NCBI GenBank assembly: GCA_019677205.1
Contig: JAAMXY010002531.1
Coordinates: forward strand, 329 to 29,341
Length of the DNA: 29,013 bases
From: Pinguiococcus pyrenoidosus
Lineage: Eukaryota > Sar > Pinguiophyceae > Pinguiochrysidales > Pinguiochrysidaceae
Direction of reading: 5' to 3'
Shown piece by piece: positions 2,578-27,100 of the stretch. The translations under genes were made by a program, and so were the position numbers. The notes beneath the pieces are model-generated. The model saw only the letters and a program-made list of their open reading frames with translations. It did no database searches and had not been told where the DNA came from. Positions within the stretch are counted from its first letter, which is position 1. The number at the start of each line of letters is the position of its first letter.

Positions 2578-5500
2578 ATGACGTCGGAGCGCTTCTTCTG
2601 CAAGGCGTTTCACCGCCGCAGCCGTCGCGGGAAGGTTCTCAAGCTGCTGGAGGAGCACTACTTGCGCGACGACCTGGGATGTGGCACGCGCATTCTGCAT
2701 GGTGAGGAAGTGACCAACTTGCATCGCTTCACACAGCGCCGCTTTCTGAACCCGTTTGCAAAGGAAAAGCGGCCCAGCTGTCCGCCAAGGCGCTTCGAGA
2801 GCTAGCTTCGGAGCATGGAAGTCTGTCGGTGCTCGACACCAACGTCCTACTGCATCAGATGGACCTGCTGGAGGCGCCAAGTGCTGGCATGGGGACTTGC
2901 CTGCTGCTGCAAACGGTGCTCGAAGAGGTGAGCGCATCGAATGGTGTTGCAACTTTTCTCTTGGACTTTGTATCTCGCAATGCGCGTCGTCGATTCGGTA
3001 TCGTCGATTCGGTATTTGTGATTCGATACCTGTGATTCGGTATCTTGTACCTCATGTGTGACCGCATGTGTGACCGCATGTTTGACCGCATGTGTGGCTG
3101 CATGGTTCTGCAGGCAAAGCCCCTGAACTTCTCGCGTGCGCGCGCTCTCTGTGTGTATGGTTCATTGTGTATTGCTCCTCCTTCAGGTTCGGCACCGAGA
3201 TCTCAAGCTCTACAAGCGAGCGCGGGCCCTGCTTCGAGAAGAATCTCGTGCGTTTGTCGTCTTTGCCAACGAGCACCACGTGGCCACGCACATCGTTCGA
3301 GAGAAGCATGAGACGCCCAACGATAGAAACGATAGGTATCGTGTGTCTGCAGCAAGCCTTGCAGAAGAGAAATTCGCCTCAAACCAAGAAAAATCATCTC
3401 TGGGGCGTCCTCCAGGGCTATTCGCGTGGCAACCGCGTGGATGCAGAAGCAGATCCAAGATGCAGGACGAGCAAGCAGCGATGCGGACTCGCGCGATGTT
3501 GTCGTGCAGCTGCTATCCAATGATCGCGACAACCTGAGAAAGGCAGCGGAGGCAGGACTTCGCTGCCACTCCGTTCATGATTTCGTCGCGTCCTTGGGCC
3601 AGGAGCACGTGGCTTTGCTGGATGTCCTGGGCCCCATGGACTCGGAGTTGGGAGACGGAGTGGTCGACGAGGACATGATGGACCAAGAGACATCGAGAAC
3701 GGCGCTGTATGCTCCGCACCTAAGTGAAGCAGATCTGCTGGCGGGCGTCAGGCGGAAACGCTTCTTCCGCGGCACCCTCCGATGCGCTGGGAACGATTGG
3801 ACAGACTGCTACGTCGTGGTGCATAGCGAGACGGGCGATCGCAAAGCGATCCGGCTGAGCGGGAAGGAGAACGTGAATCGGGCAATCGAAGGGGACTTGG
3901 TCGTCATCGAAGTTCTGCCTCAGGAGCAATGGGTCGGAGACCCCAAGGCGGCAAAAGACGGCGGAGCGGACGCGCAGGATCGGCCCAAGTCAGGTACGAC
4001 GACGCAGGAAAGTTCTACACACACACGCAAAAAGAAAAAAAACCGCCTGGGTGTGGGCACAACGCACCTCACCCACCATCACCTGACAACGACCACCTGA
4101 CACCCCTCGTCTGACTCGGCGCAAGTAGAAGCCGACATTGGCACCATCGGCATGGAGGTCGGAGACGCCTCGATCGAAGCCCTGGAGAACATTCACGAGA
4201 AGTCTTCGGGGGCCGAGGCAGCCTCGGCGGATGAACAAGTGCAGGGACGGCCCCATGGTCGCGTCGTGGGCATTCTGAAGCGGCGATGGAGGCAGTACGC
4301 GGGATCGCTGCTCAGGTCCGAGAGCAAAGACGGAGCGGCCTCGGTAGGGCTGGCGGAGACCAAAGTCTTCCTTCCAGTGGACGCGCGGATCCCAGCGATT
4401 TCCATCCGCACGCGACAAGCGTCACTGCTCCAGGACAAAAGAATGCTGGTGGCCATGGACAGCTGGCCGGTGGATTCGCCATACCCGAGGGGCCACTACG
4501 TCCGAACGCTGGGTACCATCGGCGAGAAGGGCGTCGAGACAGCGGTGGTGTTGCATGAGCATGACATCCCCTGCGATCCGTTCACGGACGAGGTCATGGC
4601 CTGTCTCCCGCCCCGCGATTGGAGGATCACAGCCGACAACTCCGTTGGGCGGCGAGACCTTCGAGGGCTGCCTGTCCTCAGCATCGACCCACCGGGCTGC
4701 AAGGACATCGACGACGCTCTTCATTGCAAAGAGCTGCCGAGCAAGAACTGGGAGGTACATAAGCAGTCAAGACTTGCCCGCATGTGCGCATAGTAACGAA
4801 GAGGGCTACGCGACCCTAGGTTGGCGTGCACATTGCGGATGTCACCTATTTCGTGAAGCCAGACACCCCCATCGACATCGAAGCAGCCAAGAGAAGCACG
4901 TCGACATATCTCGTGGACCGACGCCTCGACATGCTGCCGGGCCTTCTGACCACGGAGCTTTGCTCGCTACGGTCCAGCGAGGACCACTTTGCCTTCAGCG
5001 TCCTCTGGGAAATGACACCTGAAGGGGAGATCGTCTCTGTAGACTTTGCGAAGACCGTCATTAAAAGCATCGCGTCGCTTACGTACGATCAAGCCCAGGA
5101 GATGATCGACGCTCCGCCTGACGACCGAGGCGTTGAAACCCTTGCCGTGAAGCGGTTGGCCAAGCTGGCGAGGATCTTCAGGAAGCGACGCATAGAAGCG
5201 GGTGCCGTCACGCTGGCCTCGCCGGAAGTCAAGTTCAAGATGGACGCAGAGAGCTTGAATCCCACGGACGTCCAGACCTATGCGATGAAGGAGGCCAACT
5301 CGCTGGTGGAAGAGTTCATGCTCCTGGCCAACATCACCGTCGGCAAGAAGATCCTGAGGCACTACCCCACGCTGTCCGTGCTACGCAGGCATCCAGCACC
5401 GTCAAGGCAGCAGTTCGAGAGCCTCGAGAGAGTCGCGCAGAGCGTTGGCGTTGCTTTGGACGTGTCCTCGTCCAAGAAGCTGGCAGATAGCCTCGACGCG

Positions 5501-6484
5501 GCTGAGCGGAAGGACGATCCGTACTTCAACAAGCTTCTGCGAATCCTCGCAACGCGATGCATGACCCCGGCGCAGTACTTCTGCAGCGGAGAGCTACCTC
5601 AGGAGGATTGGCATCACTACGGCCTTGCGGCTCCGATCTACACGCACTTCACGTCGCCGATTCGGAGATACGCAGACGTGGTGGTGCACCGGCTTCTGGC
5701 TGCAACGATCGGCGTAGCGCCTCTGCCGGCATCTCTGATGCGGAAAGACAACATTCGAGACCTGGCGGACAACATGAATCGGCGTCATCGAGCAGCGCAA
5801 ATGGCTGGCAGGTGAGCCACATACAGCAAGGCCTGAGCCGCACGCTGGGAGACGCTCCTTTCTTTGCTACGTTGTCTTTTTCTGGCAAAGTCTGAGTCTC
5901 TACCGTTCCCGCCATTTTTTTTCAGGTCAAGTGTGGCGCTGCACACGCAACTCTACTTCAAAGACAGGACCGTGCGGGAGAGAGCGTACGTACTCAGCGT
6001 GAAGCGCGATGTCCTGTCGGTGTTGGTGCCGCGATTTGGAATCGAGGGCGTGGTGCATTTGAATAACTACAGTGTAGAGCACGACGCGCAGGGCCATTCC
6101 TTGACTTTTTCTGCTGTTGGGAAGATCAGCGTCACAATCCGCGCCCTCCAGTCCGTGGAGATAGAGATTTCGGTGGACGAATCCCTTGAGGGCCGGAATG
6201 CCGTACGGCTCCGAATTCTTCAGCCCGCCCTGTCTGACTTCGAAGTTGGCGCAGTTGGTGCAAAGGAAGGTGGTGCAAAGGAAGGTGGTGCAGAGGAAGG
6301 TGGTGCAGAGGAAGGTGGTGCAAAGGAAGGTGGTGCAAAGGAAGGGACTGAAAAGGAAGAAACTGTGGAAGAGGAAGAGGCGCACAAACAGGAGAAGAAG
6401 CAGTCGAAGAAGCAGTCGAAGAAGCAGGAGAAGAAGCGCAAGTCGCAGAGTCCCGCCAAGCGCGGAAAGCGCCAGAAGAGATGA
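2578..6484 (+). CDS. DIS3: exosome ribonuclease DIS3/RRP44
   Basis: Catalytic subunit of the RNA exosome (3'-5' exonuclease plus endonuclease). Seven exons: 2578-2701, 2770-2927, 3187-3335, 3416-3993, 4126-4754, 4820-5811 and 5926-6484, giving 1062 residues. The start of exon 2 is set by phase (weak acceptor), and exon 5 could start at 4129. The PIN domain has all four acidic positions: D64 in LDTNV, E94 in VLEEV, D140 in NDRNDR and D180 in LSNDRDN. The RNB domain has SIDPPGCKDIDDAL at 522-535, so exonuclease activity is expected. Cold-shock-like regions precede RNB, and an S1 domain follows at roughly 880-960. The N-terminal CR3 cysteine cluster seems reduced to a single CG. The tail carries six Gly-Ala-Lys/Glu-Glu-Gly pentads and a Lys-rich, probably nuclear-localising end. 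Confidence 0.96.
3054..3104. repeat. 12-bp tandem repeat in DIS3 intron 2
   Basis: About four imperfect copies of TGTGACCGCATG lie in the intron 2928-3186. Several copies of GATTCGGTATC-like sequence stand just before them (about 2992-3045). The intron is longer than most others here, consistent with local repeat expansion. Confidence 0.75.
6252..6345 (+). repeat. 15-bp coding tandem repeat in DIS3 tail
   Basis: Six near-identical 15-bp units (GGTGCAAAGGAAGGT with A/G variants) encode a Gly-Ala-Lys/Glu-Glu-Gly pentad near residues 985-1018. Units differ only at the Lys/Glu codon, which suggests recent in-frame duplication after the S1 domain. Confidence 0.9.
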
Positions 6485-8408: not shown

Positions 8409-11065
8409 CTACAGCTGCCGCGCCGAACGAATCTCGGGTCCTCGCGCTGACGCAGCGCCTGCGTCGCCGGCTTCTCCGACCAAGTCTTTTTCGTTGTCCA
8501 TCAACGACACTTGCTCGAGATCCGCATGCCTGCCAGGGTCCAGTTCGGCACCGTTGGCGTGGGGCGTGGTGACGGCCTTGGGCGCCGACGGCGCTCGCGC
8601 TCGATCGAGGTCGAGAATCCCGTAGAAGCACACCGTCATCGCAACGAGCGTCCCCGTGATGGCGATGAGCCCCAGCATCGTCAGCAGCAAGAAGGCGCCC
8701 TGTGCAAGACACCACCCCCCGTCAGATAATCTCTGTGGGAAAAGCTTCCTGCCCGCATGAAACGAGCTGGGGGAAGGGATCACTTACGCCGGGCAGTCGA
8801 TGGCCGTTGTCGTAGGTCAGACTGAACCAGAGGGGACCCGCCATCTGCCCTACGCCATTCACGAAGCCAAGAAAGCCCTGCCGCCCGACTCCCGACTCGC
8901 CTAGCCAGCGGGAAGAGCGCCACCACTCAGATGCAGACGGCCACCGGAGCGGCCCGACTCCTGAGCGCGCGAGGCCTGCAAGGATGGTTCACCTGAGGAC
9001 GCCTCGAGGGGGATCCGTGAGAACAGTGATCTCGCAGGGGCGTTGAGCATCGGAAAGCTGATCTCATACACGATGAGAGGCACGATGACATGCCACGGAC
9101 GCAAACCCGGATCCCTGTGCGCAGCAGGACGCCGATTATGCCTTGCCTGCGTTTCCCCTGCTGTTCTTCCGTCTCACGGCATGCAACCGTGCCCACTCCA
9201 AGACCTGCCCGCTCAAGGACATGCCAGCTTGCACCATGGACTCCGATTCAAAGACCGACAACTCCGACGTACCGAAATGCGACGGCCATCGCAATCTGAG
9301 AACCCAGCAGAACCATCGAGCCCATCAGAAGGAAAGCCCGGTCGTCGAGCTGGTTCTTGCACATCGAGTAGTTGATGAAAGCCGCCACAGGCAACAGCAT
9401 CATCGTCAAGCTAGTCAAGAATCGACGAAGCCGCTCAGCATACAGTGCAGGATGGCTCGCTGGGCAGCAGCGCCGCTCACCTTGCCATCATGATTGAGAT
9501 GCCCGTGGGACTCCACTGGAAGAACGTGACGCAGATTGGTGTGATCATCGTCTCAAACACGCCGACGCTGAAAAACAGGGTGAAAATTGTCAGTGCGCAA
9601 ATCGCACTGATCAGGCGACGCTCACAGCTGCGCATCTCGCGAACGACATCCTCGCGCTCAAAGGACGGTCGCTCAGTCTCGGGCAAGACGTCCGTGGCGG
9701 CCATCGATGCGATCTCGGTCATTGCGATTTCCCGCGTCCTCTCACCACCGCTGCAGGCTCTGCCGTCGCTCAGCTTCTCATCCAGACTCTTCTCGTCCGA
9801 AGCTGGCTTCGCTCCACGATTGTGCACAGACTCCGCTAGGCTCCGTGCACCGCTTTGGAGAGCGTCTGTGGCCGCGGCAGCAAGCAGCGGCGTCGTCTCA
9901 GATGCCTCTTCGTGGCTCTCCTGCTTCCCACGGCTCTTCTTTATCCTCGGCAATGTCACTGCACTAGGATCCTCCAGCAATGCGAGAGCAAGAACCAGCA
10001 GGAATAAGGTCAAGATGGTGAGCACGAGGCCGGGGGAGTTCAAGGTGTCGATGATCTCCGTCGATCCGTGCTTCACCGAAACGAAGCTGCAGAGGATATT
10101 GAAAGCCGGACCCATGCAGATCCCCAGCATCTTCAGCAGGTTGAAGTTGCACAACATCAATGTACGGCGTCTGCCGAAGGTCCAAGAGGTCCGAGACATC
10201 GGAAAAGTCGGAGATGAGAACATGGGCGGCACAACGCTACAGGCGCCGCTTGGTAATCAATGCTGGACGCTAACCTACCTCCGCATCCCCTCGGTCACGT
10301 CCACGATGTAGCCATTCATGAGCGTCTGTGCACCGCCCAGGAACCCGACGAACAGGCGTCCTGATAACCAAAAGTCCCTCAGCTTCGAAGCTCTCATGTT
10401 TCTTGGCACGTGGAAAGCTCGAAGCTCTGAGGCGTACCTATGATGAGCGCGGCAACGGATGCCCTGCCCGGCGTCATGAACCCCGCCAGAAGGTACACTG
10501 CGGCCAACAGCAAACACTGAGCAAGTCGTGCCGCTTCTCGCACCGGTCAAAAACGGTCAACTCACCGATGTTGCCAATGCTGGAGACGCATAATATCACC
10601 GAATAAGCGCTGCGGTACCTGAGCGAGGAAGAAAAGCGGGCGGCTTTTGAGTTCTGCAGCGGCATTTTCCATTCACGGACTCCTCTCCAAAGCTTGCTCT
10701 GCCAGGCTTTGGAAGCGGAAGCGGTGGAGCGCCTCTCGCACCCTCTCAGCATCTATGGAGTGGCCGCCCAAGACGAGGCCTGGAGGATCTGACCGGACGC
10801 ACCCGTGTTTTGCCGCGTACAGGCCCATGATGGGCCGAATGAGCGTCGACGCCAGGCTAAAGGCTGCGAAGCAGCAAGACGTGGCCAGCATATCTCCACC
10901 TGCCACATTCACGCGTGATGAGCCAAACTTGAAAGCCATTTTCCTTGCAATCCAAAGCGCGGGAGTACCGCAGCGCAGCACGTAGGAGTACAAGGTGGGC
11001 ACGATGATGGTGTACTCCACCGCCTCGGAGAACGTGATGATCCCAATGACGCACAGAGACGCCAT
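8409..11065 (-). CDS. MFS transporter, MFSD8/CLN7-like
   Basis: Ten exons with consistent phase: 11065-10969, 10899-10803, 10618-10566, 10497-10438, 10360-10279, 10170-9481, 9410-9273, 9114-8993, 8900-8788 and 8699-8409, giving 580 residues. ATG at 11065 puts TM1 almost at the N-terminus (TFSEAVEYTIIVPTLYSYV). LASTLIRPIMGLYAAKHG is the MFS loop 2-3 signature. GRLFVGFLGGAQTLMNGYIVDVT and PLWFSLTYDNGH match the MFSD8/SPX-MFS group. About twelve helices are split by a hydrophilic loop at roughly 196-315, rich in Ser/Glu. That loop holds E221-TTPLL, an acidic dileucine sorting motif, which suggests delivery to a lysosome/vacuole-type membrane. The substrate cannot be told. The ATG region is head-to-head with ISCA2. 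Confidence 0.88.
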
Positions 11066-11344: not shown

Positions 11345-11898
11345 ATGATGATTCGCACAGCAGCGTCTCGCCTGGCGCGCACCTCATTCGCGCTGTCCCC
11401 CACAGTCCAAAGCTCCGTACTACAAGGCTTGCGCGGCTTGTCCACAGCCGAGACGCCTCTGTTCGAAGACCTCATCATCACCAAAGGCTGCGCAAAGCGG
11501 ATATTGGCGCTTAGGTAAGCTGCCCAGGGCGCCGCGTTTGCAGTCTTGGGTGCACACATGAGCTCACGTGGCTGTGGTGTAGGGAAAGCAGAGGAGATGA
11601 TGGCTTGCACCTGCGATTAGCGGTGGATAGCGGGGGTTGCAGCGGTTTTCAGTACAGTTTTGAGATGGAGGAGGCGGAGAAGACCGACGAGGACGACCGG
11701 GTGTTCGAACGAGATGGCGCCACAGTGGTGGTAGACGAGAGCTCCATGGAATTCGTCAGGGGCGCCACGGTGGACTTTGCTGTGGAGATGATTCGCAGCT
11801 CCTTTGTCGTGGTGAACAACCCGAACTCCGAGAGCGCTTGCGGCTGCGGCAGCTCGTTTGCCTTGAAGAATTTTGGGTCCAATCCGGCGCTAGATTGA
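11345..11898 (+). CDS. ISCA2: mitochondrial iron-sulfur assembly protein ISCA2
   Basis: A-type carrier protein that helps build [4Fe-4S] clusters in mitochondria. Exons 11345-11514 and 11583-11898 (69-bp intron, AG|GTAAGC to GTAG) give 161 residues. The first 40 or so residues, MMIRTAASRLARTSFALS onward, are Arg/Ser/Ala-rich without acids, a mitochondrial presequence. The core carries the three ligand cysteines: C76 in GGCSGFQY and C143/C145 in CGCGSSF. The DDRVFE, VVVD, VDF, IRSSF and NNP stretches match ISCA2 rather than ISCA1. The ATG at 11345 is followed at once by a second ATG. The stop is 73 bp from the stop of the convergent SNARE gene. Confidence 0.95.
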
Positions 11899-11971: not shown

Positions 11972-14220
11972 CTACCAAAACCCCCAGCTTTGCTGCTGCT
12001 CGTTCTGCTTGCGGAGCTGCCTCGCGAGGTCTTCAAACTGGCTCGCTGCGTTGTCTGCAGGGCAAGAGAAGCGTCAGTCGTCGATGCACGTGCACCATGA
12101 CAGGGCAGGGGACCAGGCACTTACTCAGATCATGGGTCTTTTGGGATAGCTCGTCTAGCTTCTCTCCTCTTTCCTGCAGCTGCTGCCCGGCTTCTTGAAG
12201 GGTCGACGCCACCTGCGACGTCGCCCGCTCTGCGGTCCTCGCCTCACCACGATCCTGGGTCTCACCTCCCTTGGCGGGGCCCGTGAACCATCCTGCGAAG
12301 CCGGGCTTCGACGGACTGCCGTTCTTCAGCAGCTTCTCCCGGTTCGCCGCGTCGATCGCCTCCTGAGCTTCCTTGCTTTGCTTTCGGTACCCGGGCGACT
12401 TCTTGCTCGTCGCGGGGCTTGCAGCGTCGCTTCCACCCTGCTGGGAGGCGCCTTCCGTCCCTTCCTCTCCAGAGCTTCTCCTGAAATTGAACTGGCTGAA
12501 GAACTCCTTGCGCTTTGCGCGCCTCCGTTCCTTTTGCGCTTCGGCGGCCCTCTCTTCTACCTCCGACGAGATCCCCAGCACGCTCGCAAGCTTCAAGGCG
12601 GTCGCCCCCGCAGCGTCGGGCTCGTTCACGGCTGCACCCGCGGAAACGAGCTTCAAGGCAACCTCACGCGTCACCTCCACCACCGCGTCACACGGCGCAT
12701 TGCGGGCAGTCTGGCGTGAACGACAAGCCGGATCAGCACGGGCCGAGCCAAGATGTGGAATACGTCTCAGGTGTGGGGGAGTACCTGCTGCGCTACTCGC
12801 TTTGCGGCACAGTAGAAGAGCACGTGCAGAGGATTCCTTCCCTTCGTGTCGATCACTTCGACTGCATGCGGGGCGCTTTCCACCAAGCGCTCCAGCATGC
12901 GCAGGAGAGCACCGCCCTCTGCTGACAGCGCCTCGAGGCTCGCGGTGGTCATCGCGGCTGCCAAAGAGTGCAAGGCCGTCGGTGGTGCCTCTGGTTTGGA
13001 CGCCTCTATGACAATCTGAACCCCGCGTCGTGTTAGCCCTTCATGTTGGCGCTGCTGCTTGTCGAGCAGCGCTTCACGGCTTTCCTACCTGCGCCCCGCA
13101 CTTCAGCAGGGCCTCGACAGCCGCCAAGTCTACTCTAAGGCAAGCATACATCAGGGCCGTGAGGCCTCGTACGTCCACGGCGTCGATGTTCACGCCCCAG
13201 GCGAGAAGCGCTTCGATACAGCGTGTGGTGACATCGCGGCGTTCCTCGTGGCTTCCATCAGACCGGGGATAAGGATACTGCAAAATCGCGGAAAAAACCG
13301 GGGTTCGGCCAGATATATCCGTCACCGTCGGATCCCCCCCGGCGGACATGAGGTACGCGAGGAGGCTATCATAGCGGAGAGCCGCGCAGAGATGCACCGG
13401 CGTCATTCCTGGCTGAACCTTGATGCGCGCTTTTGGAAGCGCGGAGCCATCGGAAGCTCGCAAAGCCTTCGGTCGCATCGGAGAGGGCGTTTGGGATTTA
13501 GCTGGGCCGCATGTGGAATGTGGGCGCGATCGGGACGCTCACCTCTTTCCTCCCACCGACGATCATGGGCACGCCCTTCGGACAGGCCGGTGCCTTGTGT
13601 GCCGACGCATTCACGTTTCCTCCCGCCCGGATCAGCTGCTGGACGAAGTCGCTGGACCCAGCGCTCTCAAGGACGCCGATGTGCAGGGGGATCAGCCCCG
13701 TCGCCGGGTCGGGATCGTTGATGCCGAGCACGGCGTCTTGACGCAGACTGTTCAGAAGAGCAGCGTCTTTGCGAAGAGCAGCGTCATGGTACGTCTGCCT
13801 GATGATGAGCCCATCCCACCGAAAGTCCGGCGACGCCGCATGGGGCCGCGCGCTCATCGCCATCTTCGAACCAAGATCCCGAAGCCATGTCATCTTCTGG
13901 TTGAAGGACGACGCGATCAGGACGCACATCTCCTGCGGCTTCGTCTGGAAGTCGCTCTGCATGCCCTCTCGGAAAGTCAATCCCCATCGGCAACTCCTCG
14001 CGGCTCCTTGGGGTTGCTCTCCCAGTCGCTCTTTCTCAGAGCTGCTTTGATAGATATCCACGATCACAATCTCGTTCAAAGGGAAGACCCTCTCGGGGGC
14101 CAGCTCGATATCCGGTGCAAGCGCTCTACAGGTTAGGCACAAATGTGTAAGTCTCAGGACTCGGGCACAAGCTTCTTCCTCTTGTTCTTCTTCTTCTTCT
14201 TGTTCTTCTCTTTGTTTCTT

Positions 14221-14251
<31 letters not shown>

Positions 14252-15573
14252 GTCTCGTTCACACACCCACACCCACACATAAGCAGAACACGGACATAAA
14301 AACCCAACAGCTCACCTCAAGACAATCAAGTTCGAGGCCTCGCGTCGAACAGCGTCGACGTCGGTGGGGTCGGCGCTTTCCTTGGGCCCACTTTCATCCG
14401 TCGCTTGGATTGCAACGTCTGCCTTCGGAATCGTGAAGCCGATGAGCGGCCTCTGATTCGTGCACTGGACCGGCTGCGTGACCAGCAGGAAGTCGGTAAA
14501 AAGGAGCAGCCATCGTTCCTCGACGCCATCCCATAGTCTACCCAGCAGAGAAAGCAGGGGACAACAGGATTGAGAGTAAGACCGCCGCCTTCTCGAGCAC
14601 AAGGGGAAACGCCCGTACGTACCGGCCCTTCTGTAGAATCTTCACAGGCCCCGCTCGCACCAGCTTTTGCAAGCTTGTGCCGTGGAGCACATTCACGGCG
14701 ACCTCTCCCCACGCAGACGAGCTCAAGAGGTCGACCACTTCAGCGGACGGCGGCGGGGTGGGTACTGCATTTGGACTCGCATAGGACACGGGTCCCCGAA
14801 CTTTTTCGAGGGCCGCAGCCGTCGCTCCGCTGAAAACAAGCCTGGCGTCGCGAGAAGACGCGTCAGACTCAGACGACACGGAGTGCGTGCTCTTGGAGGG
14901 GCTGCCGGCAGGCGCTGCGGCTTGAAGGGGCTCGCCCTCAAGCGTGCCTCCCCTTGGTGTGACAACCGCCTCTCCCTCGCCCTTCGCTTCGCCGCTCTTG
15001 CGGCTTTGGGCTATCGTCTTCCTAATGTCAACTGCCCCCGGCGAAAGCAGAGGAGTGGCTTGCAGTCCCCGAATGAGCGTCACGGACAGAGGACGCGGGC
15101 TGTCCTTCAGGGCACGCACGAGATCGGCCCATCGAGCGTTCGTCAGGATCTCGCCCCGAAAGTCCAAAGCGGCAGCGGCCTCCTGCTCGGGTTTTGCCCC
15201 CGCCGCCCCCTCCACGTCCGCAGCAGCAGCAGCTTGAGGGGCTTCTTCAGCAGGTTCTTTCTTCAATGCTTCTGAAGTTTCGTCCCCAGCCGCTGCCTGT
15301 TCTTCTGGCGCTGGGGCTTCGCTCGGCAGAGCGTCCGGAGCGTCTGTATTTTCCGGAGCTTCTACAGCAGCTGCGGTTTCTGGCACTTCTGGCGGCGTCT
15401 GCACTTTGGCGGCTGGAGCAAGCTCTACTACGACGTCCCCGACGCGTAGTCCCAAGGCTTCCGCTTGACCGCCTCGGGCGACCTTGTGGACGAGGGCGCA
15501 ACCCTGCTCGGTGCGACGCATCGTGAAGCCCAGCAGCCCTTCCTGAAACGCCACGGTGAACTCTTGCAGGCCG

Positions 15574-15615
<42 letters not shown>

Positions 15616-16394
15616 GGCTCCAGCTCCGCGTGCTCGGAAGGTCCACTCAGGGCAGCATCCTTCTCTGCTGACGACATGAGAACCGCGGCGTCCTCCGACG
15701 CAAGCGACGCCCCGTGCTCCGCAACGGAGTCGTCGAGCACGGCCCGGACAAACGCCGGATCGATGGCGGCTGGGGCTTCTTTGTAAGAGGTCTTCACGGC
15801 CTCAGCCTCCGGCACCAGCATGGCCTCGTTTTCTGGGCCCTTGCCCAGCCACAGGCCAGTCGGCACATGCCGGAAGGACAGTCTCGTTGTTGTGTCGTCC
15901 TGCGGTGGTCCCAACGAGCAATAGCAAAAGCATCAGCTGATGCATCTTCTTCGGTGATTCTGCGCCGCACACTTCGCTTCAAGAACTTTCGTAGCGTCCA
16001 CGCCTCAGCAGTAGTCGCGGCCCAAGACGAGAGAGGCCAAAGCGTCGGACGGATCGCCGCTTGGGCCATGGATCATCGTCGGTAGCATCCGGATCTCTGT
16101 CCCAGCTTCACGCTCTCCTTCCCAACTCACCTCCGTATGCGCCACCACGTCAAAATCTTCCGCCTCCTCAGCAGTCTCTTCGGGGAGGCAGTCCTTCCAG
16201 ACGAGGTGCAGCGAGTCCGGTGCCTTTGTGAGCGCCAGAGAAGTGCCAAAGAGGATCCGTCGTTTCTGTCCGTGAGAGGGCGCTTCCGGCGGCAGCCACT
16301 TCAGAAGCCCATCTGGCGCCGAGTCCGCCCACACGGCGTTCGGAGAGGCTCCATCGACGCTGAGGAAGCTATCTTCGCAGATGAGAGATCCCAT
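11972..16394 (-). CDS. PDZ-PH-ankyrin protein with C-terminal R-SNARE motif
   Basis: Eight exons: 16394-16029, 15899-14623, 14537-14316, 14125-13543, about 13418-13089, 13015-12785, 12710-12125 and 12054-11972; about 1225 residues. The first donor (weak GTCTTG) and the exon-5 acceptor are uncertain; all other junctions agree in phase. Order: an N-terminal region with RHVPTGLWLG, faintly beta-trefoil-like; a Glu-Gln repeat; a PDZ domain at 235-286 and 368-400, split by a Glu/Ala/Pro insert; PH at about 538-711 (GPVKILQKGR, ERWLLLFTDFLLV, ending MTWLRDLGSKM); ankyrin repeats at about 740-1030 (GLIPLHIG, GMTPVHLCA, GRTPVFSA, GLTALMYA, GRNPLHVL); a charged linker; and an R-SNARE helix at 1170-1213 with zero-layer R1184. 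No membrane anchor follows. A role in tethering or regulating vesicle fusion at phosphoinositide membranes is inferred. Confidence 0.82.
12125..12211 (-). other. R-SNARE motif, upstream part
   Basis: Codes for residues 1170-1198 of the preceding gene; the motif continues in exon 12054-11972. Counting from R1184, the layer positions hold L1188, L1191, T1195, L1198, A1202, F1205, A1209 and L1212, and upstream L1181, A1177, L1174 and V1170. Seven of the eight positions after the arginine have the same residue as VAMP2. Confidence 0.85.
14167..14258. repeat. pyrimidine-rich microsatellite in intron
   Basis: TTC and TC/CT tracts on the plus strand (GA-rich on the gene's strand) fill much of the 190-bp intron 14315-14126 of the SNARE gene. 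Confidence 0.9.
15566..15620. repeat. CTCCTG hexanucleotide microsatellite in coding exon
   Basis: About eight CTCCTG units on the plus strand encode an alternating Glu-Gln run at roughly residues 215-231 of the SNARE protein, just before the PDZ domain. Confidence 0.9.
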
Positions 16395-17405: not shown

Positions 17406-18803
17406 TCACTTGCCCGCGTTGGCCTTCTTTGTCTTTCTCTCGATCTTGCGCTTGAAGGCCCGAAGCGTGTGAGCTTGCACGTTGTAGGGCCCGAACGTGG
17501 TCCACTTCGTCATGTCTTCATCAAACGGCTGTCGCAGGTCCCAAACGAGCAGCTTAGGGATATACTTCAATACGTTGTTCTGGAGCTCAGCGATCCGCCC
17601 CTCGCTGAGCGTGTTGGCAAAGCTCATGGCCTCTTCCCAGCTGTTCGCCACCAGAGCCACCTCGTGGATCCACTTGACGTCCCCCCTCCTGAAGTAGTGC
17701 GCGTAGGCGTTGCTTGGCAGCAGCGATTGCTGCTCGGGCCATCTCCGCACGCCCAGCTGGCCCTCGAAGACAATCGGGATGCAGCCCGCGACGAGGGAGT
17801 CAAAGAACGCCTTGCGGGGCGGCTGATCTCCCGGCGGGTGAATCGAGAATGTCCAGTCCAGATACTCCATGGACAGCTCCAACGGCCCCCCTCCCGTGAA
17901 GTTGGACACTTCCTGGTAGTTGCATCTCTCGGAGCTGATGCACACATCCACGAGGGGCTTGCGGAAGTCGTGTCGCCCAGTGGCTCCCACAAGCATCAGC
18001 GTTTCGCGGCGGCGGGGCTTCTTGAGCAGGTATTCCATCCACTGGCGCACCTCGGCGTCCGACCTCGGGTGGAACGACGTTGGAAATGGCGCGCCGAAGA
18101 ACTTCAGTCCTTCCTCCAGCGGGCCCATGAGAGAGACCCAGGAGGCCTCCCCCCAGTGCTTCCTGTTCAGGGACAGTCCGTAGGGCCGCGGCAGCGGAAT
18201 GAGGAAGTCCAGGCCTTGGTGCATTCTCCAGGAGGGATGCTTGTGGAGCTTCTTCTGCAGGTGGCTTATGTATCTCATGGCTTGCCGCCTAGTCTCGCCC
18301 CCCTTAAAGGCGAAGACGCTGAGCATATTCCCGGGAAACGCCACCAAGAACGCGTCGGCCTCTTCGACGCTGTCCGCCCGGCAGTTCTCAATCACGTAGC
18401 GATAGAACTGCGTGTGCATGGAGTACTGATGCGTCTTGAAGAGCTCCAGCCCCACATCGCCCACTAGGACTGGCCCCGTGCCCTGGCCGGCATTTTCCAT
18501 GCGATAGCAGTCGACGTGAGTCTCCGGCAGATCCGCAGCGCAGGAAATTCCTAGGAAGTCCGCCTTGGCAAGATCCGAGCTGTTCCAGTCCACCTTGGGG
18601 TCCAAGAAGCTCCACTCCGCAGGCACCTCCGCATTGGCCGTCAGGAAGGGGAACATGTCGGGCGGCGGCGGGAAGTAGTGGATGTAGATCTTGAGGTTGG
18701 CGCACAGCAGCTCGGAGCGAGTGGGCGTTGCTCTCACATACTCGCCACTCCAGAGCGCCGCAAGCGCCCAGCAGAATCCGACAGCGCCGCGCCAACCGGC
18801 CAT
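17406..18803 (-). CDS. exostosin-family (GT47-like) glycosyltransferase
   Basis: A single-exon gene of 465 residues, the only long intronless gene here. ATG at 18803 opens a signal peptide (MAGWRGAVGFCWALAALWSG), so the protein enters the secretory pathway, probably Golgi lumen. The N-terminal half includes IYIHYFPPP and HTQFYRYVIENCRA, where exostosins have their YxYDLP and E-x-x-F segments. The C-terminal signature lies at about 311-346: SMEYLDWTFSIHPPGD then FFDSLVAGCIPIVFEG, matching the exostosin S-x-F-C-L-x-P-x-G-D ... GCIPV nucleotide-sugar region. The protein ends in a Lys/Arg-rich tail. It probably adds sugars to cell-surface or scale glycans; donor and acceptor cannot be told. A lack of introns could mean retrocopy origin or transfer, but composition matches its neighbours. 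Confidence 0.88.
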   Translation of the reverse strand: MAGWRGAVGFCWALAALWSGEYVRATPTRSELLCANLKIYIHYFPPPPDMFPFLTANAEVPAEWSFLDPKVDWNSSDLAKADFLGISCAADLPETHVDCYRMENAGQGTGPVLVGDVGLELFKTHQYSMHTQFYRYVIENCRADSVEEADAFLVAFPGNMLSVFAFKGGETRRQAMRYISHLQKKLHKHPSWRMHQGLDFLIPLPRPYGLSLNRKHWGEASWVSLMGPLEEGLKFFGAPFPTSFHPRSDAEVRQWMEYLLKKPRRRETLMLVGATGRHDFRKPLVDVCISSERCNYQEVSNFTGGGPLELSMEYLDWTFSIHPPGDQPPRKAFFDSLVAGCIPIVFEGQLGVRRWPEQQSLLPSNAYAHYFRRGDVKWIHEVALVANSWEEAMSFANTLSEGRIAELQNNVLKYIPKLLVWDLRQPFDEDMTKWTTFGPYNVQAHTLRAFKRKIERKTKKANAGK

Positions 18804-19657
18804 CTTGGACGCTGGCAAAGAGTCTCAGCGCACCGGAGGCCTTGGCAAAGGTCGTCGAAGCGGCGCCAGCGTCTCAAAGCCCCAACGGAATTTGGCACCA
18901 AACTGCGAACGCTGCACGAACTCAAAAAATTCGAGGGAAAAACTCCAAACCAGAACCCGGAAACGCCAGCGCGTGACAGATGGAGGTGTCCAAGAGGACG
19001 TCCGAGTACGCCCGCTGGTGTTGGGGGTCCAGGTGGAAGCCGGAAGCGCGTGGAAGGCGCGGCTGGATCTTTCCCTCGTCAGCGGTCAGCTGACCACGAT
19101 CGGAGCTCCCTACAACAGCGAAGCAATCCGCTGAAGCCCGCAAACGCCCGAAACGGTAATTGGTCGGAGCGGGGTTGTCCAATCTCATTCCAAAACCCGG
19201 GGCCGTTTCACCGGAACTACCCGGTGCTCACAATCCTAGCATATCCCGTCGCAAATCGATCTGAACTTTCAAATAAATATCTCAATATCCCGTTCTCTAG
19301 GATCCCGGAGCTGTGGATCAGAAAAGAAACTCCCGGCGGTTTTCCGCCGTTGCGGCGCCGTTCAGAAGCGGTTTTGCAAGACAAACGCTCCTCTCAAACG
19401 AGAGCTCGCCGCTTAATCCGTGTGGCCTGCGCCCGATTCTGTGGCGCCGTCCGTGCGCGCGAGAATTCATTCTCTCCGCGCCCCTTGCGCGCGCGTCCGT
19501 GTGAACGTCCGGTGAGAATTCGCGCGCCCAAAGCGCCACTTGAGCTTGCGAATTCTGCGCGGGCTTGTGGAGAATCCGGCGCCCGCCGCAGCAAAGCTCA
19601 CCTTCCTCGCGCGTGTCGTGCAGATAGCAGCGCTGCGACCAGCGCCAGAGACACAGC
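18804..19657. promoter_or_regulatory. divergent intergenic region, exostosin / MYB
   Basis: The longest head-to-head gap (854 bp). It includes a short AT-rich piece with TTTCAAATAAATAT (about 19267-19283) and a CpG-rich part with GCGCGC runs (about 19440-19600). That part holds three GAATTC sites and the inverted repeat GAGAAT-TC-ATTCTC at 19461-19474. A 398-residue plus-strand frame running through it is rejected as coding. Confidence 0.4.
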
Positions 19658-20962
19658 ATGGCGGATGGACATGCCGATCCGGCGCTCGGCGCCGCCTTGG
19701 CCGCAGACGGCTTGGACAACTACGATGCTTCCGCGGCGCTCCACGCTCCTCTGCCCATGGAGGCGCCGGCCAGCGCCGCTGCGGCCCCGGCAGCCGCCCC
19801 GGCCAAGAAGAAGGCCGGCTTCAGCCGCAAACCCTGGACGAAGCATGAGGACGAGATGCTCAAGGAGCTGGTGAACCGCTTCGGGCCCAAGCGCTGGGCG
19901 ACGATCGCGTCGCAGCTGCCGGATCGTATCGGGAAGCAGTGCCGGGAGCGGTGGACCAACCACTTGCGCCCGGAAATCTCCAAGGATCCCTGGCGACCCG
20001 AGGAGGACGTGCTCATCTTCTACTACCAGAAGCTGCTGGGCAACCAATGGGCAGAAATTGCCAAGTATCTGCCCGGGAGAACGGAAAACGCCATCAAGAA
20101 CCGCTTCCACTCCAGCCTGCGGCGGTTCCAGCGCCAGGAGAAGCGCAAGTACGGGCAGCAGGCGGTCCTGCGCGCCATGTTTGCGAGACAGGGGATGAAC
20201 ATCCCCGGCTTTGGGGCGCTTGCAGCCGGGATGCCGCAGGCACAGCTGGCGCTCGCGGTGGAGATGCAGAAGAAGGCCGGCAGCAAGAAGAGCAACAAGG
20301 AGGAAGGGAAAGGAGAGGAGGAGACCGCCGACGACGGCTCCGATCCGAACGCAAAGGGGCCGCGCGCAGAGGATGGAAAAGACGAGACCGGAGGCGTCCC
20401 GAATCCCATGGTGGGCTTGGGGACGGTCGACCCCAACGTCTCACAACTTCTGGGGAACTTCGACCCGGCCATGGTCGCTGCGCAGCAGGCCCTCTTGATG
20501 AACACACCGGGCCGCCAGGCGAACGCAGCAGCAGTAGCATCAGATACCATTTCAAACACAAAGGAGTAAGTGGACCGGCCGTGGGAGCCTCTCCTGCGTT
20601 CCTCGCCATGGGAGGAAAGGCAAGGTGCTCACGTCGGCCCGTGCCTTGCTTTCTTCGCAGAGGACAGCCGAATCCGCCGCCCGCAAATGCAGAGGTCTTG
20701 CGCGCGGCGCTGCTCCAGGCGGCCGCGGGAGGAAACCAGGAGGTTCTGGGCAAGCTTCTTGGTAGGTGACAAGTGCCGCCCGCCTTCCACCCACAACGGC
20801 GAAGTGCTCGTGGTGCTCACGAGCGGCGTTCCTGCCTTGTCGTTCTTCCGCGTCTTACCAGGCATGAGCTCACTGTCCAATATTCCGAGCATCGATCCAG
20901 CCGTCTTCGGGTCCTTGCAGCCCCAGGGCATGGAGCCGCCCGCTCCGACCAAGACTGATTAA
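19658..20962 (+). CDS. R2R3-type MYB DNA-binding protein
   Basis: Exons 19658-20565, 20661-20761 and 20862-20962 (introns of 95 and 100 bp, GA|GTAAGT to GCAG and G|GTAGGT to CCAG) give 369 residues. An Ala/Pro-rich N-terminus is followed by two MYB repeats. Repeat 1 is at about 59-104, with Trp60, Trp80 and Trp99. Repeat 2 is at about 110-156, with Trp112 and Trp131, the third Trp replaced by Phe150. PDRIGKQCRERWTNHL and PGRTENAIKNRF are the recognition helices; they resemble animal c-MYB and cell-cycle 3R-MYB proteins in sequence. A Lys/Glu-rich middle (about 215-255) and a Pro/Met/Gln-rich tail may be regulatory. It is expected to be a nuclear transcription factor; targets are unknown. Confidence 0.93.
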
Positions 20963-23061: not shown

Positions 23062-24440
23062 ATGGTGTTCAACATTGCGACACAGCAGTGCATCGACGCC
23101 GGCACCTGCGGCGTTGCAGCCGCTGCCTTGGTGGCGCAGGACAGCGCCATCAATGCGGTGTTCGCCAAGGTGGGACCTGCTCGCTTCTACAGCCGCACAA
23201 GGCAAAACGTGCAATTTCTGGCGCAAATGGGGGATTTTCGCACCCTTTTCTCTCCAAAATTTCCCCATTTTCCGCCGACGTTTCCCCCTTTTCTTTCCCG
23301 AAGCGTCGAGAGCGAAGTCCAAGCGTTCGGCGACGGCATGACACGGAGTCTCCTCTGACGCTCTGTTTCGTCTCCGCTGTTTTTCCGCCGTTTTCCCCTC
23401 TTTGCATGCCAGTTTTTGATCGCCGGAGTGGTCACTTGGCTGTTTGAGGCGCTTTTGGGCCACTCCCTGGAGTTCTTGAAGATCGCCAAGCAGACGTCGG
23501 ACGCGAGCTACCTCAGCATCGTGAGCAGCATCACCGAGGAGAAGGGCCTCCTGGGCCTGTGGGATGGGTTTTTCCCCTGGGGCTCTGTCCAGGCGCTCCT
23601 GAAGGGCAGTGTCTTTGGCGCGGCCAATGCCTTGATGAAGGCGCGATTGGCGCCTTTGGTGGCGGAGAACAGATTGAGCGCTCGGGCGGCGGAGGTCATT
23701 GCCGGAGGCGTGGGAGGCGGCTTTCAGGGCCTGGTGCTGTCGCCCACTCTGCTGCTGAAGACGCGGGTCATGACGGACCCCGTCTTCCGCCACAAGATGG
23801 ACTTCTGGGAGTCCAACGTGCAGAGCGCGCGCGTCGGGGCGAGGGTCATACGCGAAGAAGGGGTCGGGGCGCTCATGAAGGGGGCGGGCGTCTTCAGCTC
23901 CAAGAGGGTCTTCGATTGGTAAGCCTTGTTGCATTGCCGGCTTGTCCTTGGTGGTCCGTCGACTTGTTGGGCCTTCTTCTGGTCTTCTTGGGTGACATTC
24001 GGGTGCAGCTGTCTGCGACCGCGAACGGGGAAGGCGGAGAGACAGAGGATGAAACGACCAACGCGATTTGCCGCCCTTCTTGCAGGTCGACTAGATATCT
24101 CTTCGCAGAGATGGTGGAAGCGTCGCTCTTTGCGGACGTGGAGAAGCTGAGCATGGCGCAGAAGATGCTGGCCTCGTTGCTGGGAGGCAGTCTCAGCGCG
24201 TGTGTGACCTTGCCGATGGATGTGGCCACGGCACAGATCCAGCAAGCTAGCAAGGCAGGGCAGGCGGTGTCTCTCTTCGACCTCTTCCTTGGGCAGCTCG
24301 ACAACGGCGGCTTGGCGCAGATTTTCCGCTTCGCCAGCCGTGGCTTTACCGCAAGGCTGTTGCACGTGGCGCTCACGACGCTGTTCATGAAAACGGTGAC
24401 CGCACAAGTGTACGACTACTTCTTCGAGAAGAAGGGATGA
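23062..24440 (+). CDS. divergent mitochondrial carrier (SLC25) family protein
   Basis: Exons 23062-23169, 23413-23918 and 24086-24440 (introns of 243 and 167 bp, phases 0 and 2) give 322 residues, the usual carrier length. Three repeats are visible. Each has a hydrophobic helix, a degenerate P-x-D/E-x-x-K/R signature and an amphipathic stretch: GHSLEFLKIAKQ with Ser instead of Pro; LSPTLLLKTRVM with Leu instead of the acid; and LPMDVATAQIQQ with Thr instead of the base. GLLGLWDGFFPW matches the G-x-x-G-L-[FWY]-[KR]-G matrix-helix motif. The family moves metabolites across the inner mitochondrial (sometimes plastid or peroxisomal) membrane. The altered salt-bridge residues suggest an atypical carrier whose substrate cannot be predicted. 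Confidence 0.85.
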
Positions 24441-24977: not shown

Positions 24978-26106
24978 TCAAAGATGAGGCCCCGTCGACA
25001 GGATCGCGCTTGCCGTCTCGGTTTCCAGCCTCGGGCCCTTGTCAACCTTGCAGGAGGGGCTCGCCGCCGCGGCTGCTGCTGCTGCTGCTGCCGCCGCCGC
25101 CGCCGCCGCCGTGGCCGTGGCCGCCGCGGTGACCGCCCACTGGTTGTTTCGATTCACTTTGATGATGCGGTCCTTCTGGACATCCGTAATATTCAATCCG
25201 TTCTTCGTCAGTCGCAGGTCCACCTGCGTGCTGATGTTGCGGCTGGGCGGGGCGTCGAACGGACAGCGGTGGTTTGCCTTGAGCTGGCCACACTTGCCAC
25301 ACTTGTATCTGCCGCGATTTCGGAACGAAGCCGCGTTTGCACCCCGAGCAAACATGCCAGGACTGCCCAGATTGGGGACCGGATCGGACGTCAGGCTCGA
25401 GGTGCTGCCGCTGCGGCTGCTCTTGCCCTGCGGAGTGACGGTGCCGGCTGGGTGTGCCGCGAACGGAGGATAAACCTGCTTGTCCGTGTTGAAAGTCACG
25501 GCTTGAACTTGTGGGAAAAACGGCGCCTGGCCAGTGGGAAGCTTTAGAAACATGCCAGGGAGGCCTCCGGCCGTCACGCCGGGCGCGACGCCGGGCATGC
25601 TCGGCACGCTGGGAACACTGGGCACACTGGCAACGCTGGCAACGTTGGAAACGCTGGCAACGTTGGAAACGTTGGGAACACCTGCTGCGGCAGCGGCTGC
25701 GGCAGCCTTCCTCCCGTCGGCCTTCGGCCTGCGACGGGACACCTTGTGCTGCTTTCTGGCGGATGCCAAGACCGCGCTCGAGCTGAGCAGCTCCGAGCCC
25801 ACGCGCGAGTTGTATACAGGGATCGCGGACGCGCCCTTCTGGACGTACTTTCGCGCCATCAGTTGTGGACGGAGCAGTCCGCCGGAGAAGTCCACGCTTC
25901 CGAAGCTGGCGCTGCCGTCGGGGAAGACCTCCATCGCTGCCGGTGCCGGCGGCAGCTCGTAGCGGCTGAACGGGTGGCCGTTGTTCTCGGGATTCGCAAT
26001 GAGGTTCTCATCCCAGTCGGCCGAACTCGTGCTTCCACGGATGAGCGCGCCAAAGTCCGTGGAGGACAGCGTCTGCACGCGATCCACGTGCGGCGCCGCT
26101 TCCTCC

Positions 26107-26141
<35 letters not shown>

Positions 26142-27100
26142 CTCTTCGTCCTCTTCTTCGTGCGCCTCTTGTGCCTCCTCGTCGGACACGCCCCCTTGGA
26201 CCTGCCTCTGCGACTGGGTGACGTAGTGCTGCTCGTGGACCTCGGCCCGCATGGCGCTGGAGAAGGCCTCCGTCGGCATCAGGCGGCTGTGCGGCACGTG
26301 GAAGTCGTCCAGCGCCTCCGACATCAGCGTCGAATCCGGCGGCTGCACGCAGTAACAAGCGGCGGTTCAGCAACTCACGCGTCAGCGGTCGCCTCGCGCA
26401 TCCGTGTCCGGCATCTCACCTCACTGTGCACTCGACGATGCGTCTTTGTCGCGGGCGCGATCTCGGGCTGGAGCTGCGGCGTGCCAAAGAGATTGTACGC
26501 CGAGTTCCCACTGCTGCTCCGCCGTCTCGTGTCTCCGGTCTCTCCTTTCTCTGCAAGGCGACGCACCGCTGAGACAAGCGTAGCTTCGGGAGTGCGCCGG
26601 ACGCGTGTGCGCTTTACCTGAAAGCGTCTCGAGAGGGTGAAAGGTGTACACTGGGTCGGGTTGCCCAGGGCCCCCGAGCCGAATGTAGCTGTCCTGTCCC
26701 GACAGATGCGGCTCCATGTAGTCCAGCGAGTAGTCATCCTCCGCAATGGTCAGAAACTCGTTCGCCTCGAAGGGCGAGATGCCTAGGGATGTGTATGGAT
26801 GAAGTGAGCAGGTGCGGCCTTCGCAGATCTTCGGGACTGGTTCTGCCGCCGTATCCACGCTTCTCTCGCGCTCGAATCTGCTCAACATCCCGCGACCCTG
26901 GCCCCGCACGGCGCTTTCCTCATCCGCAGCCCCTCTGCGATGCCGAGAAGAAGAAGTCGAAGCGGAAGGGGGGACGCACCGTCGGTAGATCCCGCCGAGT
27001 TTCTTCGAGAAGCGCCTCCCTGCGCCAAGTGGAGCATGTGGGAGTCACTCCGACTGCGTCGGTGACTGCGCTTGACACTCGGGGACAGAGAGCGCTTCAT
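24978..27100 (-). CDS. low-complexity protein with zinc-knuckle-like C-x2-C-x6-H-x-C motif
   Basis: Exons 27100-26980, 26782-26618, 26550-26420 and 26342-24978 give 593 residues with matching phases. The N-terminus is Ser/Arg-rich (MKRSLSPSVKRSHRRSRSDS), like SR-type or phosphorylated nuclear proteins. It continues into an acidic, Pro-rich part with NEFLTIAEDDYSLDYMEPHL. Then come: a pure Glu run at about 201-220; short repeats of the type SNVASV and SVPSVP (about 364-388); the motif C487-GK-C490 ... H497-R-C499 inside GRYKCGKCGQLKANHRCPF; a conserved-looking stretch to about 540; and a poly-Ala run at about 541-566. The Cys/His motif probably binds zinc and perhaps nucleic acid. I do not recognise the full-length family; a nuclear regulatory role is a guess from composition. 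Confidence 0.72.
25070..25129. repeat. GCT/GCC repeat encoding poly-alanine
   Basis: GCTGCT and GCCGCC tracts on the plus strand encode the poly-Ala run near the C-terminus of the zinc-knuckle-like protein. Confidence 0.9.
26098..26160. repeat. TCC/TTC repeat encoding poly-glutamate
   Basis: A CTC/CTT-type trinucleotide tract on the plus strand encodes a Glu run of about 20 residues in the same protein. Mixed GAG/GAA codons suggest selection on the protein rather than a young microsatellite. Confidence 0.9.

Follow-up and report, generated by a model that had tools for sequence, protein, structure and literature searches.

Few anchorless R-SNAREs have been named; PMC6143360 gives tomosyn and amisyn. 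Tomosyn (STXBP5/STXBP5L), the regulatory R-SNARE (R.Reg), is a large soluble protein with an anchorless R-SNARE motif at its C-terminus and, without an anchor, forms complexes with syntaxin and SNAP25 (PMC10495110). Amisyn (STXBP6) combines a PH domain with a VAMP-like coiled coil that lacks a transmembrane anchor (PMC10670990, PMC9715400), the coordinates of the PH domain being inconsistent within PMC10670990. Since a patchily distributed tomosyn-like R-SNARE is described in kinetoplastids, soluble R-SNAREs are already known in protists (PMC5399786). Here we analyze a stretch of 29,013 nucleotides (the window; contig JAAMXY010002531.1, positions 329 to 29,341) from the Pinguiococcus pyrenoidosus assembly GCA_019677205.1 (23.7 Mb, 768 contigs; the window lies within contig C638). 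It contains a gene for a protein that, like tomosyn, is large and apparently soluble and ends in an anchorless R-SNARE motif, here joined to ankyrin repeats and to probable PDZ-like and PH-like domains.

The gene lies on the minus strand (16394-11972) and is modelled with an ATG start, eight exons and seven GT-AG introns, giving 1189 residues. Removal of the last intron (12124-12055, minus; GTAAGT...CTGCAG, 70 bases, phase 1) leaves an open frame to the stop codon at 11974-11972, as the original prediction had it, and the resulting C-terminus reads as a significant R-SNARE. The Pfam Synaptobrevin family (PF00957) matches residues 1126-1179 of the whole protein with 33.6 bits (curated cut-off 26.4) and an E-value of 3.4e-8, in agreement with the R-SNARE profile match that had been anticipated. 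For the 59-residue tail alone the E-value is 9.8e-10, and the next Pfam family, of coiled-coil type, follows at 0.0049. Layers -7 to +8 of the motif (residues 1124-1176; 12014-12242, minus, with intron 12124-12055 inside) are A A T V L A L R L L T L A F A L. Those from +1 to +8 are exactly the ones claimed before, while two details of the earlier description change: the zero-layer arginine, then numbered R1184, is residue 1148 of 1189 in the present model (codon 12168-12170, minus), and the 16-layer motif begins at 12242, outside the range 11972-12211 assigned to it. Among sequences in the PDB, VAMP4 matches best (7.7e-6), followed by a designed coiled coil (0.012), tomosyn (0.02) and VAMP2 (0.038).

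We also compared the tail with an own-genome R-SNARE profile, built from six R-SNARE motifs elsewhere in the genome, two of them partial. The tail scores 32.6 bits. None of 5000 plain shuffles comes up to this value (highest 13.0), nor does any of 5000 shuffles in which residues stayed in their heptad positions (highest 18.4). The part encoded by exon 7 scores 19.8 bits and the form with the intron retained 19.1, so crossing the junction is worth 12.8 bits; because the motif match improves only in the spliced form, the junction between exons 7 and 8 is supported. Against PF00957, exon 7 alone gives 19.4 bits in the Pfam scan and 22.8 bits in the genome search, both under the cut-off.

Exon 8 (11972-12054, minus) encodes residues 1163-1189 and the stop. 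Behind layer +8 the protein continues for thirteen residues, RKQNEQQQSWGFW, with a net charge of +1, and then terminates. The tail behind the tomosyn motif is similarly short. Every stretch of 19 residues that begins among the last 60 has a mean Kyte-Doolittle hydropathy of at most -0.75, giving no transmembrane segment there, and the C-terminus, SWGFW, carries no CAAX box for prenylation; the earlier claim of thirteen residues ending in WGFW with neither kind of anchor is thus borne out. The PF00957 match likewise ends at position 60 of the 89 in the profile. A hidden anchor reached by other splicing was considered and rejected: none of 243 donor/acceptor pairs down to position 10900 creates a terminal CAAX box, and the six outcomes of highest hydrophobicity need acceptors at or below 11163, past the Fe-S-type open reading frame at 11515-11898. 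This frame, on the plus strand, is a Fe-S cluster assembly gene (PF01521, 1.5e-13) convergent with the R-SNARE gene, their stops being separated by 73 bases.

Judged by eye, the remaining R-SNARE genes detected in the genome appear to be anchored. A hydrophobic C-terminal segment is visible in L001, L002, L004, L005 and the two-exon gene L006/L007, and L003 ends in CCVIA; L022, a weak match (E 0.235) with a plain hydrophobic stretch, was left uncounted. The gene L006/L007 (contig C486, 10101-10428, minus) is brevin-like and apparently anchored, and in an ungapped alignment with other R-SNAREs its zero-layer arginine is replaced by glycine, ALEGTHKIEALE.

The link between the motif and the scaffold lies in exon 7 (12125-12710, minus; residues 968-1162), a single open frame holding the last ankyrin repeat, a basic linker and R-SNARE layers -7 to +4. 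Since the zero layer and an ankyrin repeat occupy the same exon, the fusion of the two is independent of splicing, and we rejected a separate R-SNARE gene. The ankyrin repeats pass the Pfam cut-off in the whole protein (Ank_2, 1.2e-11, 45.4 bits against 27.3). We scored individual exons with a re-registered profile made of 58 repeats, taken from the ankyrin proteins that our protein searches retrieved, using 3000 shuffles per exon. The best domain in exon 7 scores 16.6 bits, and no shuffle in 3000 does as well; the corresponding counts are 0 for exon 5, 9 for exon 4, 49 for exon 6 and 584 for the exon-2 control. An earlier profile in poor register gave exon 7 only 4.9 bits, with 15 of 5000 shuffles as high, and exon 7 alone returned no ankyrin family from Pfam at E up to 1.

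The other two scaffold labels are weaker. The PDZ-like domain, in exon 2, consists of an N-terminal part (15408-15572, minus; residues 198-252) and a C-terminal part (15063-15167, minus; residues 333-367). PF00595 matches it at 0.042 in the whole protein and at 2e-4 with 22.1 bits (cut-off 23.2) after removal of an insertion. This Ala/Glu/Pro-rich insertion of 80 residues (15168-15407, minus) splits the domain, which is preceded by a short Glu-Gln repeat (residues 182-197). A structure prediction of the PDZ stretch had a mean pLDDT (predicted local distance difference test) of 43 and was discarded. The PH-like domain (13855-14663, minus; exons 2-4, residues 501-678) has long internal loops and two introns within it. 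The whole-protein Pfam scan reports no PH family; the uncut region gives a sub-threshold match to SOS1_NGEF_PH (0.033), and with the loops removed there are three matches, all to PH families, the best at 0.0026 with 18.4 bits (cut-off 27.7). Against PDB sequences, the region has no match at E up to 10. The earlier PDZ-PH-ankyrin label therefore stands for ankyrin, whereas PDZ and PH stay under the Pfam cut-offs. With the borders as drawn, exon 2 also contains the passage from PDZ to PH and exon 4 that from PH to ankyrin, the PDZ and PH domains both being weak. A basic and phenylalanine-rich stretch, QKERRRAKRKEFFSQFNFRR (12477-12536, minus; residues 1026-1045, net +7), lies about 80 residues ahead of the R-SNARE motif; it is MARCKS-like and is a possible membrane-binding segment.

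To ask which R-SNARE the motif resembles, we compared the core layers. Over -4 to +8, identical layers number 11 of 13 for tomosyn (PDB 1urq), 9 of 13 for VAMP2 and 8 of 13 for VAMP4. The -2 layer is alanine in this protein and in tomosyn, but asparagine in nine of ten readable anchored R-SNAREs (VAMP2, VAMP4, VAMP7, VAMP8, Nyv1, L001, L002, L004 and L007) and threonine in the tenth (L003). The -3 layer is leucine in this protein and in tomosyn, but methionine in eight of the ten, with leucine in L003 and threonine in L004. In this ten-sequence comparison L005 was not covered, VAMP7, VAMP8 and Nyv1 were read by eye, and further R-SNAREs from the PDB were listed without alignment.

Together, the sequence itself shows an R-SNARE motif that has no anchor and shares an exon with an ankyrin repeat, and the original reading of a soluble R-SNARE attached to an ankyrin protein is well supported by the profile matches and the shared exon 7. 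Having no membrane anchor, the protein is probably a regulator of fusion and not one of its drivers. We put at roughly even the chance that it is a peripheral scaffold, with ankyrin and probable PDZ-like and PH-like domains, carrying a genuine anchorless R-SNARE, and acting as a tomosyn- or amisyn-like regulator on a new scaffold.

We then propose how such a regulator might work. An anionic membrane would hold the protein through its PH-like domain and the basic/phenylalanine-rich stretch, and the R-SNARE helix would pair with cognate Q-SNAREs or enter an assembly intermediate that a Sec1/Munc18 protein holds. With no anchor behind the motif, the resulting complex would be unable to pull membranes together, and fusion would therefore be delayed or limited wherever the ankyrin and PDZ-like parts place the protein, like tomosyn and amisyn on their other scaffolds. 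The picture of tomosyn as a plain occupier of Q-SNAREs is itself disputed: according to PMC10965968, tomosyn binds VAMP2-containing template complexes and excludes SNAP-25, rather than competing with VAMP2. In the same paper, a tomosyn mutant with alanine for the +6 phenylalanine does not rescue, its expression also being lower. The genome offers candidate partners. Its candidate Q-SNAREs (L015-L020) are six matches to the SNARE family PF05739, four of them over the cut-off, and there is one syntaxin-domain match, with Sec1-family matches on five contigs. Neither tomosyn, sought through the LLGL family, nor SNAP-25 gave a match in the genome, but their controls gave none either.

Several observations weigh against this reading. 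Layers -6 and -5 are unlike tomosyn, which lowers the agreement to 11 of 15 over -6 to +8, and the layer comparison was made post hoc with a single tomosyn sequence. Identity over the whole motif is higher with VAMP4 (19/53) than with tomosyn (16/50), as are the PDB scores (29.7 against 19.0 bits). Since layers -7, -6 and -2 are alanine, the N-terminal half of the motif may pair weakly. Tomosyn has a polybasic domain after its motif that is described as required (PMC10965968), whereas the tail here has a net charge of only +1. The PDZ and PH labels, judged from sequence, are plausible but under curated cut-offs. Finally, no relative with the same architecture and no orthologue was found among 5.8 billion proteins by a search that relies on shared five-residue words. 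In this search, residues 505-1189 retrieved five proteins at E up to 0.001 (scoring was confined to the 7991 candidates with most words in common), residues 495-830 retrieved four at E up to 10 (4335 candidates), and residues 1085-1189 had no match at E up to 10 among 300 candidates. All nine proteins found are ankyrin-repeat proteins in which PH and Synaptobrevin are absent, as judged by a scan of P0002 and P0006-P0009 and by precomputed Pfam lists for the other four.

Further searches concerned paralogues, viruses and the literature. The C-terminal 717 residues, searched against the genome, gave at least seven matches, all of them exons of the same gene, so that no paralogue appeared. Viral contigs searched with exon 7 contained 45 stretches that fit a pattern, none of which was confirmed. 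In titles and abstract openings, the combination of an R-SNARE with an ankyrin scaffold was not found described. As to the earlier statement that no soluble R-SNARE is known to be joined to PDZ, PH and ankyrin modules, an anchorless R-SNARE with PH is known from amisyn (PMC10670990, PMC9715400), and it is the joining to ankyrin repeats that we did not find elsewhere.

Four other explanations of the gene can be weighed against the same data. The one that survives best, though we regard it as unlikely, is a lipid-anchored SNARE that promotes fusion in the manner of yeast Vam7, with the PH-like domain and the basic stretch replacing the transmembrane anchor and the complexes being productive. In its favour, the motif is well kept through layer +8, but Vam7 is a fusion-promoting Q-SNARE, the -2 layer here is tomosyn-like and unlike that of anchored R-SNAREs, and some 80 residues from the basic stretch to the motif would make a poor force link. 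Vam7 does have no transmembrane region and is apparently anchored by its N-terminal PX domain (PMC2639358); the anchorless R-SNAREs tomosyn and amisyn, however, are described as unable to drive fusion (PMC10495110, PMC6143360, PMC9715400).

Alternatively, the R-SNARE helix may be mainly an address tag, docking the ankyrin/PDZ-like scaffold at Q-SNARE sites and gathering partners there with little direct effect on fusion. Most of the protein does consist of scaffold regions, and the SNARE domain of tomosyn, as an isolated fragment, still overlapped with over half of the synapsin puncta (PMC5529015). The core layers, however, are good enough for a complex, which would itself occupy Q-SNAREs, and we find a pure docking role distinctly unlikely. 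An ankyrin fold-back that keeps the motif closed until a ligand releases it, an in-chain version of VARP holding VAMP7 closed, would suit an ankyrin repeat and a motif in one chain and one exon. The VARP clamp acts via the longin domain of VAMP7, however, and the Pfam scan reports no longin family here, which makes this explanation improbable on its own; as a layer of control it would be compatible with a tomosyn- or amisyn-like regulator. Very improbable is the absence of a working SNARE, whether the helix is a coiled coil by chance, the motif has decayed or the gene model is an artefact: the gene comes from one genome with no orthologue in the word-based searches, and the tail has weak matches to other coiled-coil families (best 0.0049) and a designed coiled coil as its second PDB match (0.012), but its scores lie far above both types of shuffle and rise only on splicing, and one exon is common to the ankyrin repeat and the zero layer.

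The remaining parts of the gene, all on the minus strand, are as follows. Exon 1 (16131-16394, ATG at 16394-16392) encodes residues 1-88 and is placed by frame and splice sites, without a Pfam match; a Pfam scan of residues 1-159 at E up to 5 gave no family. Exon 2 (14623-15899; residues 89-513) holds linkers, the PDZ-like domain and the start of the PH-like domain, exon 3 (14316-14537) the middle of the latter, and exon 4 (13543-14125) its end and the start of the ankyrin region. Ankyrin repeats continue in exon 5 (13089-13412), which would be two residues longer if an alternative acceptor, in frame and six bases further upstream, were used, and exon 6 (12785-13015) covers a degenerate ankyrin region.

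Elsewhere, the window encodes a fatty acid desaturase (337-1680, minus), an RNB-domain exonuclease (4820-5812, plus), an exostosin GT47 protein (17409-18824, minus), a Myb protein (19628-20566, plus) and a mitochondrial carrier (23359-23919, plus). An open reading frame within 8500-8024 (minus) has a signal-peptide-like start followed by AFQAPGR... and no Pfam family at 0.001; its phenylalanine-containing motif presumably resembles a leader for red-type secondary plastids, which would point to an alga. Another, of 462 residues (24981-26366, minus), contains one long run each of Glu and Ala and has no Pfam match at 0.001.

Compared with the known systems, the protein shares single traits with each. 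VAMP4, the nearest single PDB sequence, has the same RG at the zero layer and the next position, but it has asparagine at -2, is membrane-anchored and is not known to carry scaffold domains. Amisyn is not known to have ankyrin or PDZ domains and is said, in the title of Kondratiuk 2020, to be vertebrate-specific. VARP (ANKRD27) binds VAMP7 in trans and is not known to carry a SNARE motif of its own. Its ankyrin repeats are coupled to an R-SNARE (PMC4059916), and fungal Vam7 carries a phosphoinositide-binding PX domain in place of a transmembrane segment (PMC2639358). Amisyn has 210 residues (PMC10670990), against 1189 here. Tomosyn bears WD40 repeats in an N-terminal double propeller, whereas no WD40 family is found here by Pfam at E up to 1, ankyrin and probable PDZ/PH domains standing in their place.

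Opinions differ on what scaffold and motif each contribute in anchorless R-SNAREs; for tomosyn in C. elegans, function is not restored by either part on its own (PMC3195084). With a third scaffold it would become apparent which features of the motif are needed: here the -2 alanine and the +6 phenylalanine are kept, and the polybasic tail is not. Without a detected paralogue in the 23.7-Mb assembly, the gene would also be a handle on the restraint of secretion in such a cell. To a SNARE specialist the architecture would come as a surprise, although it comes from a single gene model and we infer its function. It is tempting to speculate, somewhat short of an even chance, that it represents a separate class of soluble regulatory R-SNARE, in which a lineage-specific joining to a PDZ-PH-ankyrin scaffold, independent of tomosyn and amisyn, would have converged on the core layers of tomosyn, with alanine at -2, while a PH-like domain and a MARCKS-like stretch replace the tomosyn propellers and polybasic tail.
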